DNA of 60,163 nt from Pseudomonadota bacterium (GTDB lineage: Bacteria > CALINM01), in assembly GCA_026415985.1 (NCBI GenBank), contig JAOAGA010000001.1:1-60163 (forward strand), given 5' to 3'. The first letter of the stretch is position 1. Each line of letters starts with the position of its first letter. The notes beneath the pieces were generated by a model. That model ran no database searches, was not told the DNA's origin, and saw only the letters and a program-made list of their open reading frames with translations. This document shows, piece after piece, positions 46,174 through 56,981 of the stretch. Both the position numbers and the translations under genes were made by a program.

Positions 46174-48180
46174 TTATATTTGAAAAATAATTTTTATTTC
46201 AAAATTATTACCATCTAAATTTACTTTAAGCATGCTATTCATAATGTTTAAAAAGGTTTTCAAGTTATAAAGCAAATAGTAAAGCGTATCATCATAGTCA
46301 TTCCATTTGTCATCATTGATTAGTTTAAAAGTTTCATTCAATGAAGGTTTTATCCTGTCTAAGAAACAGGCAATATTTACAATCAGCCTATTTTCTTCTT
46401 CCTGAGCTTCTAATCCGAAGTTTATGGCACCTGAATTAAGAAGCTCTTCAATAATTTTTTTAAGAACAAAAGCTATTTTATCAAAATCTCCCCATTTTTG
46501 AAAAGATGGAATTTCACTATTGATTTTTAGAATGTCCTGAGGAAGGGTATCCTTAATTTTTTTAAAAATATCTCCAACCTCAAAAATTTGCATGTTAGAT
46601 TCTTCTTCTCCACCAATCCTGTTTATTATACAGAACTCATCTCTCAGTAACTTTAATCTGTTCTCAACCAATGAAATTTTTTCATAACAACTTTTATTTT
46701 TTTCATTGTCTGTAATATTACTGTCTTTATCCAAGTAGTCTAAATAGCCATCGAGCAAAGATAGGTTGTTCGACAGATTCTCGCAGATTCTTTGAATAAT
46801 CTTCTTCTTTTGCCTTTCCTCCCATTTCAAGAATTGGTTTTTTTCAAAAATGTCATTATCTACATTTTGAGCAAGTCTTTTAATCTCTTTTTTGTCCGGG
46901 TTCTCCTGCCTGTTTAAAAACTCAATGTTTGACAGATAAACTGCTATCTGATTACCAACTGCTTCAAAAAACCTTGTCTCTTCTTCCTCAAAATCTGATC
47001 CGGAATGTTTAAAACCTAAAAGTGTTCCCAAATAGATTTTTTGAAATATAAGAGGTTGCCATAGTGTTGATAGATCTTCGAACTTAAGTTTGTTTAGCTT
47101 ATTTATATTTTTTACACTGATTAAACCGGTCTTTTTCCAGTTTATTATCTTTTCAACCCAGTATTCGATTTTTTTAATCTCATTGTTGGCAAGCTTCCTG
47201 TCCTTACTTTGAATAACTTCTCCGTTAAAGATCCCCTCACAGGACAAAATGAGAGTTATGTCAGTAGCTTTAACAAGCCTTCTCAGTTCATAAATGACAT
47301 ATTCAAGCACTTTGCTATAGTGAAGATTGCTTAAGAAAGCCTGAGTTATATTAAAGATTGCGGTAACTTCATTAATCTTGTTTCTTATCTCGGTAACATC
47401 CTGAAGAATGAGAAAGGCACCTGCAAAAAGATTATCTTCATTAAGTAAGTTATAAAAAGACACATGAAAGGTTTTTGTCCCGTAATTAATTACAGTTGAT
47501 TCCTTTACCGGCGCTTTTTCATTTTTAAATCTTTTTAGTATATTCGCCACATATGGATACTCATTGGAGCTAAATATCTCTTCTATATTTTTTCCTACAA
47601 TTAGCTCTTCAAGAAGTCTCATGTTCTCACAAAAGGAATCATTCACAAACAATATCTTTCCGTCTTCATCTATCTGTACTATACCTTCAATGAGGTTTTT
47701 AAAGATAGCTGAATGATTAAGCTCAGTCCTTAAGAGCTCTTTAACGATCTGCCGAGGGTAAATATCAGTAAGGCCCAATATCTTCTTTTCTTTATTAAAG
47801 GCAATTTTTTCAATATCGGGCAGTAGCTCTCCGAAGATATCCTTCATTTTTTCGAAGGGACCTTTTGCAATAAATACATCTGCATAATTTTCCATATCAT
47901 CAGTTTTAATACTTTCTAAGGCAGCAGCAGTTATGAGTATTATAGGAGTGGTTGAGTAGTGTGGAATAGACTTGATATATTTTGCAAGTCTGATACCATC
48001 TACCTTGGGCATAATATAATCAAGAACAAAAAGATCATATTTTTGCTCACGGGCCATATTAAGGGCAATTAGCCCATCGCAAGCTTTATCTACAATATAG
48101 TCAAAGCTACTCAAAATATCGGAGAAAAACTCTAAATAAAATTCATTATTATCAGCAATAAGACACCTTTTCAAGCCCAC
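46174..48180 (-). CDS. Receiver-PAS-GAF protein with a degenerate histidine-kinase core
   Basis: A 668-residue cytosolic signalling protein. Order: receiver domain (about 1-120; phosphoacceptor in LFVLDYIMPKVDG, Lys in FIAKGPFE), PAS domain (about 150-265; HSAIFKNLIEGIVQIDEDGK), GAF domain (about 275-415), a helical dimerisation-like region and a C-terminal ATPase-like region. In the dimerisation helix the position expected for the phosphorylated His is Glu467 (CENLSNNLSLL), and no DxGxG nucleotide motif is visible. Start is GTG 48180 or, by spacing from AGGGAG, TTG 48174. Together with the PleD-like cyclase 16 bases upstream it forms a signalling pair. Confidence 0.85.
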   Translation of the reverse strand: MGLKRCLIADNNEFYLEFFSDILSSFDYIVDKACDGLIALNMAREQKYDLFVLDYIMPKVDGIRLAKYIKSIPHYSTTPIILITAAALESIKTDDMENYADVFIAKGPFEKMKDIFGELLPDIEKIAFNKEKKILGLTDIYPRQIVKELLRTELNHSAIFKNLIEGIVQIDEDGKILFVNDSFCENMRLLEELIVGKNIEEIFSSNEYPYVANILKRFKNEKAPVKESTVINYGTKTFHVSFYNLLNEDNLFAGAFLILQDVTEIRNKINEVTAIFNITQAFLSNLHYSKVLEYVIYELRRLVKATDITLILSCEGIFNGEVIQSKDRKLANNEIKKIEYWVEKIINWKKTGLISVKNINKLNKLKFEDLSTLWQPLIFQKIYLGTLLGFKHSGSDFEEEETRFFEAVGNQIAVYLSNIEFLNRQENPDKKEIKRLAQNVDNDIFEKNQFLKWEERQKKKIIQRICENLSNNLSLLDGYLDYLDKDSNITDNEKNKSCYEKISLVENRLKLLRDEFCIINRIGGEEESNMQIFEVGDIFKKIKDTLPQDILKINSEIPSFQKWGDFDKIAFVLKKIIEELLNSGAINFGLEAQEEENRLIVNIACFLDRIKPSLNETFKLINDDKWNDYDDTLYYLLYNLKTFLNIMNSMLKVNLDGNNFEIKIIFQI

Positions 48181-54001: not shown

Positions 54002-54808
54002 TCAGTATATAATTAACCCTGCGTAACCTACGACGTAATCGTAATCACCGCTCACCTCGCCTGAGGTGGCATACCTGATAAGTTCCCCTTTTGTGGCACC
54101 TAATGTCTTGCTCGCTTCAATACCGACTACAGCAGGTGACAACCCGCACATGGTAATATCCAGTTCTCTGCAAACATCGAAGAGTCCCTTGCTGTCAAGA
54201 TCCAATACCCTTTCAATTGCTCTTTTATCATTTTTTAAAGCCCAGTCGTGGCTTACATAATGAGACATATCGGAGCTTATTACTATCAATACCTCTTTAT
54301 CATAATCTCTAATAGCCTTTCCAATGGAAAGTCCAATCTCTCTCAGGTATTCATATTTTGAACTCATTATTGTAATTGGCACTATTGAAATATTTGGGTT
54401 TATTTCAACAAGGAATGGCAGCTGAACCTCTAAAGAATGCTCCTTTAAATGGGCAAGATAATCGTCTTCAATTAAACCATTACTTTTTATAATCAGATTT
54501 GCCAGTTTATTGTTAATAGGAACGTCCATAAAGGGGGTCTCCCAAATACCTTCAGTCATTATGGAAAAAAATCTTCCCATTCCGGTATGGTTGGGACCTA
54601 AAAGTATTATGTCATCAGGTATATTAACAGAAGAATAAACAATTCCGGCTACGCTACCAGAATAGACGTATCCTGCATGGGGAGCTATTAATGCCTTCAC
54701 AGATTTTTTGGGTAGATCTTTTTTAATAAACTCCTTTAACATGTTTTTAAGCTTAACAGGGTTTGATGGATAAAATTGCCCTGCAACTACTGTTTGTCTG
54801 ACTATCAT
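54002..54808 (-). CDS. MEMO family protein (AmmeMemoRadiSam system protein B)
   Basis: A 268-residue protein opening RQTVVAGQFYPSNPVKLKNM, then the metal-site segments ALIAPHAGYVYSGSVAG, LLGPNHTGMG and SSDMSHYVSHDWA, and finally MCGLSPAVVGIEA with the family Cys. The fold is that of class III extradiol dioxygenases. In bacteria MEMO often lies with an AMMECR1 protein and a radical SAM enzyme; neither is beside it here. Function is unproven. It is monocistronic and ends five bases from the converging SUMF-fold gene, with no terminator between. Confidence 0.9.
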   Translation of the reverse strand: MIVRQTVVAGQFYPSNPVKLKNMLKEFIKKDLPKKSVKALIAPHAGYVYSGSVAGIVYSSVNIPDDIILLGPNHTGMGRFFSIMTEGIWETPFMDVPINNKLANLIIKSNGLIEDDYLAHLKEHSLEVQLPFLVEINPNISIVPITIMSSKYEYLREIGLSIGKAIRDYDKEVLIVISSDMSHYVSHDWALKNDKRAIERVLDLDSKGLFDVCRELDITMCGLSPAVVGIEASKTLGATKGELIRYATSGEVSGDYDYVVGYAGLIIY

Positions 54809-54916: not shown

Positions 54917-56650
54917 ATGAGATATTTAAAAACATTATATCTATTGCCATTAATTTTTTTCCTGTGCAATACAAAAGTTTCTGCTGAGTATTCAAAAAAA
55001 GTTGTTCTGATAGTGCATTCCTATCACCAGGGTTATGAATGGTCAGACGGAATACACAACGGACTTATAAATACTTTAAAAAACTTTAAAAATCTGGAGG
55101 TTTATGTTGAGTATTTAGATTTAGTCAGAAATAAAGAAACTGATGAATATACAAAGCTCTGGATAAATTTTTTAAAGGAAAAATATAAAGACAAAAAGAT
55201 TGATCTGTTAATCTCTGTTGATGACAACGCCTTCGAGTTCTTTATAAAACATAGAAGCACAATTTTTGGTAATATCCCGATGGTTTTTTGCGGTGTTAAT
55301 GATTTTACTAAGGAAATGTTGAAAAATAATAAAAATATTACCGGTGTTAACGAGCAGAAATCCATGGCAGAGACAATAGAGCTTGCCTTAAGATTATCTA
55401 AGGATGCGAAGAAATTGGGAGTTATAGCAGGCGATAGGATTTCCGAAAGAAAAAATCTTGAACAGTTTAAAAGAGATGTTAAGCCCTTTGAGAAAAAAAC
55501 AGAGATTATATATTTTAACCAAAGGGAGTTCGATGAGATATTAAAGGGGTTAGAAAACTTTGATGAGAAAGATGTGGTAATTTATTTATCATATTTAAGA
55601 TCTCCTTCCGGAAAGATTTTTGATAATACAGAAAACCTGAAGAGGATATCACAAAAGACGTCAGCAAGAGTTTTTACAGTTTCTGACCATATGGTAAAGG
55701 CAGATGTTATCGGTGGGAAGGTTACATATGCCTATAGTCAGGGGGAATCGGCAGGTAAAATGGCTATTGATATACTTATTAATGGCAAAAAGGCCGATGA
55801 AATACCAATTTTATATAAAAGCCCCAACAGGTTCGTTTTTAACGGTGGTGCCCTTATAAAACACAATATTTCTATTGCTACTCTACCAAAGGACTCTGTT
55901 ATTATTAATAAAACCGACCAATATATGACAGATCAGTGGAAGGAGGAAATAAAAAAGAGTTTTTTCGGATATGACCTATTCAGAAATCACGGAACGGTAA
56001 TGTTAATAATAGATCCAAGAACAGGAACGATTATAGATGCCAATGAGACAGCAAAACTATATTATGGTTATCCAAGACTAATTGGCAAAAAGATTCAGGA
56101 GATAAATACGCTTTCTGAGGAAGAAGTAAAAAAAGAGATGGCAAAGGCAAAGGAGCTCAAAAGAAACTATTTCAGCTTCAGACATAGATTGGCAAGTGGT
56201 GATATCAGAGATGTGGAGGTCTATTCATATCCAATAAAACTGGGAGAGGATAGCTTTCTTTTCTCTATAGTCTTTGATGTAACAGAAAAGCTTTTGGCAG
56301 AAAAAGAAAATGAAAAAGAGAAAAAAAGGGTTTTGCAGGTTCTTATCTCACTTCTTGTAATATCTGTTGCCTTTTTATTAATATTAGCATTATACATAAT
56401 AAACAGGAAAAGATATGAGAAAGATTTGACAGAAAAAAACAAGAGACTTGAAGAGGCACACCGTCAGATTAAGACATTGGAAGGTATCTTGCCTATATGT
56501 ATGCACTGTAAAAAGATCAGAGATGACAAAGGTTACTGGAATCAACTGGAGAAATATATATCACAGCATACCACCGCCCTTTTAAGTCACGGTTTATGTC
56601 CCGATTGTGCTAAAAAACATTACGGTGATTATTTAAAAAAGAATGAGTAG
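54917..56650 (+). CDS. Membrane sensor: periplasmic ABC-substrate-like domain, PAS, and a C-terminal Cys4 module
   Basis: A 577-residue protein. Signal peptide (1-23); a periplasmic binding domain of the ABC-substrate-like type (about 28-325; VVLIVHSYHQGYEWSDGIHN, IPMVFCGVNDF, YSQGESAGKMAIDIL); a PAS domain (about 350-460; GTVMLIIDPRTGTIIDANET); one transmembrane helix (about 474-494); a coiled coil; and a C-terminal domain with C528, C531, C561 and C564 (LPICMHCKKIRDDKGYWNQL then SHGLCPDCAKKHY). No kinase, GGDEF, EAL or methyl-accepting output is present. The four cysteines probably bind zinc or another metal. The ligand is unknown. Confidence 0.85.
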   Translation: MRYLKTLYLLPLIFFLCNTKVSAEYSKKVVLIVHSYHQGYEWSDGIHNGLINTLKNFKNLEVYVEYLDLVRNKETDEYTKLWINFLKEKYKDKKIDLLISVDDNAFEFFIKHRSTIFGNIPMVFCGVNDFTKEMLKNNKNITGVNEQKSMAETIELALRLSKDAKKLGVIAGDRISERKNLEQFKRDVKPFEKKTEIIYFNQREFDEILKGLENFDEKDVVIYLSYLRSPSGKIFDNTENLKRISQKTSARVFTVSDHMVKADVIGGKVTYAYSQGESAGKMAIDILINGKKADEIPILYKSPNRFVFNGGALIKHNISIATLPKDSVIINKTDQYMTDQWKEEIKKSFFGYDLFRNHGTVMLIIDPRTGTIIDANETAKLYYGYPRLIGKKIQEINTLSEEEVKKEMAKAKELKRNYFSFRHRLASGDIRDVEVYSYPIKLGEDSFLFSIVFDVTEKLLAEKENEKEKKRVLQVLISLLVISVAFLLILALYIINRKRYEKDLTEKNKRLEEAHRQIKTLEGILPICMHCKKIRDDKGYWNQLEKYISQHTTALLSHGLCPDCAKKHYGDYLKKNE

Positions 56651-56715: not shown

Positions 56716-56730
56716 TGACCTAATAAAATT

Positions 56731-56890
56731 GTGAAACGAGCTTTAAAGCCTTAGGGAATCCTGTGAAAGTCAGGGGCTGCCCCGCAGCTGTAAGCGTGGA
56801 CGAAAACCCATAGAACCACTGTCTCAGGCAGGAGATGGGAAGGGGGTGAGTAGGATGAAACGCAAGCCAGAAGACCTGCTTTAAAGCATT
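56731..56890 (+). ncRNA. Cobalamin (adenosylcobalamin) riboswitch aptamer
   Basis: Conserved B12-riboswitch blocks occur in order: GGGAATCCTGTGAAAGTC near 56754, GGGGCTGCCCCGCAGCTGTA near 56773, GGGAAGGGGG near 56837, GATGAAACGCAAGCC near 56853, and the B12 box AGCCAGAAGACCTGCT at about 56865-56880. The closing P1 helix is GCTTTAAAGC at 56740-56749 paired with an identical, self-complementary GCTTTAAAGC at 56878-56887. It precedes cobD, cbiB and cbiA, as expected for feedback control by B12. Confidence 0.96.
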
Positions 56891-56941
56891 ATTGCACGTA
56901 CTCCTCGAGGGCGGAGAAAGGGCTCAGAATGAATTTTTTCT

Positions 56942-56981
56942 AACCCGGCTTCTCTAATTAAAAAGAGGGGTCGGGTTTTTT
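56942..56981 (+). terminator. Riboswitch expression-platform terminator
   Basis: A 13-position stem (56942-56954 with 56965-56977, including three G-T pairs) with a ten-base loop is followed by a T run. It ends five bases before the first start codon. Ligand-bound aptamer should favour termination. The only purine-rich ribosome-site-like element, GAGGGG at 56965-56970, lies inside the 3' arm of the stem. Confidence 0.85.

Follow-up and report, generated by a model that had tools for sequence, protein, structure and literature searches.

How does a membrane receptor pass on a signal when its only candidate output is a cysteine-rich tail? This question is raised by a gene in the window, by which we mean the whole 60,163-nucleotide stretch of DNA that was analyzed. 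The gene (54917-56650, +) encodes 577 amino acids, arranged as a signal peptide, an ABC_sub_bind domain (the SBP part), a PAS domain, one membrane helix, a further helix, and a terminal Cys4 module (C528-x2-C531-x29-C561-x2-C564). Its reading frame and cysteine positions were verified by ORF analysis and translation, and the coordinates and CxxC-x29-CxxC spacing given in a first-pass annotation of the sequence proved exact. The features are located as follows:

54917..56650 (+), 577-aa transmembrane sensor with a C-terminal Cys4 module (ORF, translation; 59%-identical ortholog)
54917..54985 (+), probable signal peptide, aa 1-23, VSA-EY (by eye; hydrophobic stretch below the threshold length of a membrane helix)
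55175..55876 (+), ABC_sub_bind (PF04392) periplasmic binding domain, aa 87-320 (Pfam; ~28-335 judged from relatives)
56000..56287 (+), PAS domain, aa 362-457 (Pfam; probably periplasmic, as the only membrane helix follows it)
56330..56401 (+), membrane helix, about aa 472-495 (hydropathy, sequence)
56402..56482 (+), long helix or coiled-coil linker, aa 496-522 (AlphaFold2 helix 491-517, pLDDT 83-98)
56483..56647 (+), Cys4 module, aa 523-577, predicted beta-alpha-alpha-beta-alpha (alignments, conservation, models)
56498..56509 (+), first CxxC, C528-C531, at the predicted end of strand 1 and start of a helix (model, conservation, sequence)
56597..56608 (+), second CxxC, C561-C564, at the predicted start of the last helix (model, conservation, sequence)

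Pfam identified ABC_sub_bind at residues 87-320 (E = 1e-15; 58.3 bits against a curated cut-off of 25.9) and PAS_9 at residues 362-457 (E = 7e-9), with no family above cut-off and no output domain after residue 460, and with no match to HisKA/DHp, HATPase_c, or GGDEF in the protein. NCBIfam returned a sensory-box PAS match and a TrpX-type SBP match, the latter weak and well short of its cut-off, and nothing else. By hydropathy, a single membrane helix follows the PAS domain and none separates it from the SBP; because the N-terminus is also signal-peptide-like (MRYLKTLYLLPLIFFLCNTKVSA-EY), both domains probably lie on the periplasmic side. Beyond the membrane, a charged helix leads into the tail, LEGILPICMHCKKIRDDKGYWNQLEKYISQHTTALLSHGLCPDCAKKHYGDYLKKNE, which carries all four cysteines. 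The domain order proposed by the first-pass annotation thus agrees with Pfam and hydropathy, the latter being the basis of the topology, and its claim that kinase, cyclase, and chemoreceptor outputs are absent is borne out by Pfam.

Relatives of the sensor indicate what the tail may have replaced. Across the 145 genomes searched with the window SBP sensor, the SBP-PAS-helix-module layout occurred only in the window gene and in its ortholog in another genus of the same family (L142, 59% identical). Among 12 fused relatives, all from other families, 10 carried a histidine kinase; the other two were a protein truncated at a contig end and one with PAS domains only. In all 12, the SBP is followed directly by a membrane helix (by hydropathy), so their PAS domains would be cytoplasmic. 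The window protein shares a periplasmic sensor domain, PAS, and one membrane helix with ABC_sub_bind sensor kinases (SBP-TM-(PAS)n-HisKA-HATPase-REC), whereas it has the Cys4 module for the kinase core and its membrane helix after the PAS rather than between the SBP and PAS. Given the kinase fusions in other families, the module stands where the kinase does, and the PAS domain appears, from hydropathy, to have moved to the periplasmic side.

The Cys4 tail is real, widespread, and not an idiosyncrasy of this protein. It is present three times in the window's MAG (1.57 Mb): in the window gene, in L002, whose N-terminal part is SnoaL-like (one SnoaL_3 Pfam match, assigned to L002 by inspection), and, in divergent form, in L003, behind a short PAS-like protein adjoining a hybrid kinase. 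A scan of GTDB genomes with cysteine-containing peptide patterns recovered at least 574 relatives, 80 of which came from Desulfobacterota, Neomarinimicrobiota, Spirochaetes, Verrucomicrobia, Acidobacteria, Chloroflexi, Bacteroidota, Nitrospirota, and others. Because these patterns contained cysteines, conservation was rechecked in a second set, a whole-genome search of 386 genomes across Bacteria with no selection on cysteines (E below 1e-5), in which 78 of the 386 genomes contained the module, with up to nine copies each. The four cysteines were invariant in 109 tail proteins, a set partly picked by cysteine-containing patterns. In 108 distinct tails from the 386-genome search and the earlier survey, C528 was kept in 108/108, C531 in 107/108, C561 and C564 in 107/107, W541 in 108/108, and H558 in 103/107 (96%), the exceptions being one short degenerate copy and one copy cut by a stop codon. 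The cysteine conservation on which the first-pass reading depended therefore extends to 107-108 of 108 tails in a survey not picked by cysteine. K532, R535, the acidic pair D536-D537, and E545 are conserved as well, and an IRDDxGYW stretch is strongly conserved across phyla.

Two smaller observations concern the arrangement of module genes. A divergent form of the module is carried by short proteins (~200 aa) encoded at L003:1075-1707, with the hybrid kinase next to the gene, and at L142:4428-5003 (-), divergently beside the ortholog of the window gene. Three module-bearing genes are clustered within a few kilobases at G044:C3:531090-535435 and at G018:C51:8005-9585.

The position of the module is that of an output, and its partners are input domains. 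It was terminal (within 35 residues of the C-terminus) in 105 of 108 surveyed proteins, with a median of 7 residues after it, and the first 113 module proteins all end in it, with 0-65 residues after. Pfam partners in 109 full proteins were REC (29), PAS, GAF, HAMP, dCache, MASE3, HisKA_7TM, VUPS, TPR, the two-component regulator propeller (Reg_prop), Tll0287, and ABC_sub_bind (3), and input-type domains were found again in the 59 partner regions lacking REC and PAS. These tallies cover the 25 commonest families; the remaining ones, each with no more than two members, may include a rare output domain. Similar tails on some receivers and PAS proteins had been mentioned in the first-pass annotation. 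HATPase and GGDEF were absent from 221 module proteins (113 plus 108) searched with local profiles. Moreover, a HATPase or GGDEF output was found in 0 of 26 PAS-bearing module proteins versus 16 of 21 other PAS proteins at the same loci (Fisher p = 1e-8). Many copies sit directly behind one to eight membrane helices, and a long helix almost always precedes the module. The module is not strictly an output everywhere, because a few proteins place it before other domains: L215 reads PAS-module-GAF-GAF, and L227 has a divergent N-terminal module followed by a degenerate receiver/GGDEF-like part. These two may hint at an additional, cis-regulatory role of the module. In L229, the reading frame runs on into a pilin-like segment after the module.

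This layout follows the same modular logic as GGDEF receptors and REC-GGDEF regulators, namely a sensor or REC, a helical linker, and a terminal output. The end of the linker in module proteins (LxxALxxVKTLSG) seems to resemble the helix that precedes GGDEF. However, module proteins lack GGDEF, and no common fold or motif was found. No trace of a kinase or GGDEF domain was detected in any member, and a degenerate kinase or GGDEF domain was accordingly rejected; nor is the module recognizable as a degenerate form of a known output domain, an identity that the first-pass annotation had set against its own proposal.

AlphaFold2 modeling of 82 aligned tails yielded a compact beta-alpha-alpha-beta-alpha fold with a pLDDT of 90 (helix 491-517, strand 524-528, helix 529-535, helix 540-551, strand 555-559, helix 562-574), and the same elements were obtained for the 60-residue domain alone (pLDDT 90, pTM 0.66). 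In the model, each CxxC lies at the end of a strand, or just after it, where a helix begins, so that the module reads as two strand-CxxC-helix halves. This predicted geometry would suit one Zn(Cys)4 site. Conservation of the four cysteines likewise fits zinc bound by two CxxC motifs, as in FlgZ-like DUF164 proteins, and on these two grounds zinc binding is likely. PMC3372290 describes FlgZ/HP0958 (DUF164), which stabilizes RpoN, as a coiled coil with a C-terminal CxxC pair coordinating zinc, in a type of ribbon thought to bind proteins or nucleic acids. The module shares the coiled coil and the C-terminal pair of CxxC motifs, but it is attached to sensors and receivers, and no zinc-ribbon, DUF164, or other Pfam or NCBIfam model matched above cut-off in 20 module members.

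Wider searches gave no relative for the module. No match above cut-off was obtained in Pfam (2025), NCBIfam (2026), PHROGs, PADLOC, or PDB sequences, and the 88-aa model had no relative in a viral structure library. Foldseek comparison of the 88-aa and 60-aa models with the PDB gave a best E of 0.9 and no thioredoxin above noise, an absence that excludes nothing; VIA-align against the PDB gave Z of at most 2.4, and no PDB structure, solved zinc fingers included, had an E below 0.9 in the fold searches. A weak likeness to DUF3039 (PF11238) appeared in 15 of 20 module sequences (best E = 0.002, below the DUF3039 cut-off). This candidate was dropped because the matches are sub-threshold. DUF3039 is absent from the window's genome, among 14 control genomes it occurred only in Corynebacterium, and the likeness probably arose by chance around a single CxxC. 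Many deltaproteobacterial response regulators carry such CxxC tails, and others will thus already have noticed the pattern as such. Nevertheless, a full-text search of the open-access literature returned no description of the module, which may have a name in the subscription literature, and the signaling-helix paper (PMC1592074) is silent on zinc and cysteine.

We therefore favor, with a probability of roughly 55%, a reading in which the tail is an unnamed, probably zinc-binding, C-terminal docking or output module of phosphorelay-type signaling proteins, and the window protein is a one-component membrane receptor that uses it. Ligand binding to the periplasmic SBP/PAS part or, in soluble relatives, phosphorylation of REC would alter the pair of helices that runs into the module, and the Zn(Cys)4-stabilized module, thereby exposed or re-oriented, could then bind a partner protein. 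Within this scheme, there is strong evidence that the module is of the output type, whereas zinc, transmission through a dimeric coil, and protein docking are inferred. The uncharacterized output class suggested by the first-pass annotation thus stands insofar as the module is real, widespread, terminal, found in place of known outputs, and without a library match.

Alternatively, the two CxxC pairs could form a thiol redox switch or a redox-released zinc site, through which the module would report the cytoplasmic redox or metal state and gate the receptor instead of being its output. Each CxxC follows a strand at the start of a helix and is often succeeded by Lys, as in thioredoxin-like sites; a sub-threshold likeness to Thioredoxin_2 was found in 4 of 20 members (best E = 0.04) and to DsbC in the PDB (E = 0.18), and Zn-Cys-x-x-Cys redox centers are treated in a review (PMC3184428). 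We nevertheless consider this unlikely. The thioredoxin/DsbC likeness is limited to a single CxxC and no stronger than expected by chance; Foldseek gave no thioredoxin-like match of weight, although such an absence excludes nothing; W541 and H558 are retained together with all four cysteines; and a module at the extreme end of receivers and receptors occupies the place of an output.

Small Cys4 modules often bind nucleic acid, and the module could accordingly be a zinc-finger-like transcription or RNA regulator carried by receptors and response regulators. The conserved K532 and R535 would be consistent with this, as would the REC-module proteins, which are laid out like response regulators with one effector domain. 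However, many copies are tethered right behind their membrane helices, acidic residues (D536-D537, E545) are conserved, and no DNA- or RNA-binding zinc family matched above cut-off. For these reasons, docking to protein is most likely, and a nucleic-acid-binding output is improbable. Least credible is a structural cap that merely ends and dimerizes the coiled coil, the proteins signaling through hetero-oligomers with full kinases and the tail itself having no partner: the near-constant preceding helix, the lack of any output in proteins without REC, and the link to kinase-rich genomes would accord with it, but the IRDDxGYW conservation across phyla seems beyond the needs of a cap, and REC-module response regulators would be left without any output.

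If the tail is a protein-docking output, gene neighborhoods suggest where its partners may lie. A histidine-kinase gene adjoined 11 of 29 REC-module genes and a REC gene 16 of 29, compared with 7 of 83 and 9 of 83 for module genes without REC; in the background, taken as genes four or more positions away, kinases numbered 2/179 and REC 4/179. Apart from REC, HisKA, HATPase, and PAS, no family recurred in more than 3 of 147 neighbors. HisKA density was higher in 30 module genomes than in 30 module-free genomes (8.7 vs 4.5 per Mb, p = 7e-5), which, because the genomes were unmatched for phylum, is an association only. Genomes with more complex regulation of any kind could be the ones that carry the module; however, GGDEF density was equal in the same phylum-unmatched sets (2.1 vs 2.0 per Mb, p = 0.75). 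A diguanylate cyclase partnership was rejected, as GGDEF is not enriched in module genomes. Docking to sigma-54, as in FlgZ, is also unsupported, because RpoN is as frequent in module-free as in module genomes (27/30 each) and is missing from three module genomes, one of them a single-contig complete genome. The co-occurrence with a kinase or cyclase family that the first-pass annotation had asked about was thus found for histidine kinases, both as genome content and as neighbors, but not for cyclases, and it does not name a specific partner. The kinase association suggests the phosphorelay network and the lack of a conserved operon partner a shared target. Most module genes are orphans, and no other family recurs beside them; the partners are thus most likely common components of the histidine-kinase network.

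For many response regulators and receptors, no output is on record. It is quite possible, if somewhat less likely than not, that the module defines an undescribed class of signaling output, present in about one fifth of the surveyed bacterial genomes, by which response regulators and membrane receptors are both connected to a common, conserved target in the cell. If the module is an output, hundreds to thousands of proteins (at least 574 relatives in one scan) would gain a common, testable effector.

Several other elements of the window were recorded around the sensor gene. A cobalamin riboswitch (RF00174, 102 bits) lies at 56729-56897 (+), between the window gene and cobalamin-biosynthesis genes that start from 57200, and a terminator-like hairpin is found near it at 56942-56977. 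A cobalamin link of the sensor was considered and dropped, because the ortholog (L142) has other neighbors and the link is not preserved at its locus. The divergent gene upstream (54002-54808, -) seems to resemble the MEMO1/AmmeMemoRadiSam family. Further away, a 668-aa protein (46174-48180, -) adjoining a REC-GGDEF gene combines REC and PAS with a kinase-like C-terminal half in which Pfam found no HATPase_c, and is possibly a degenerate kinase.
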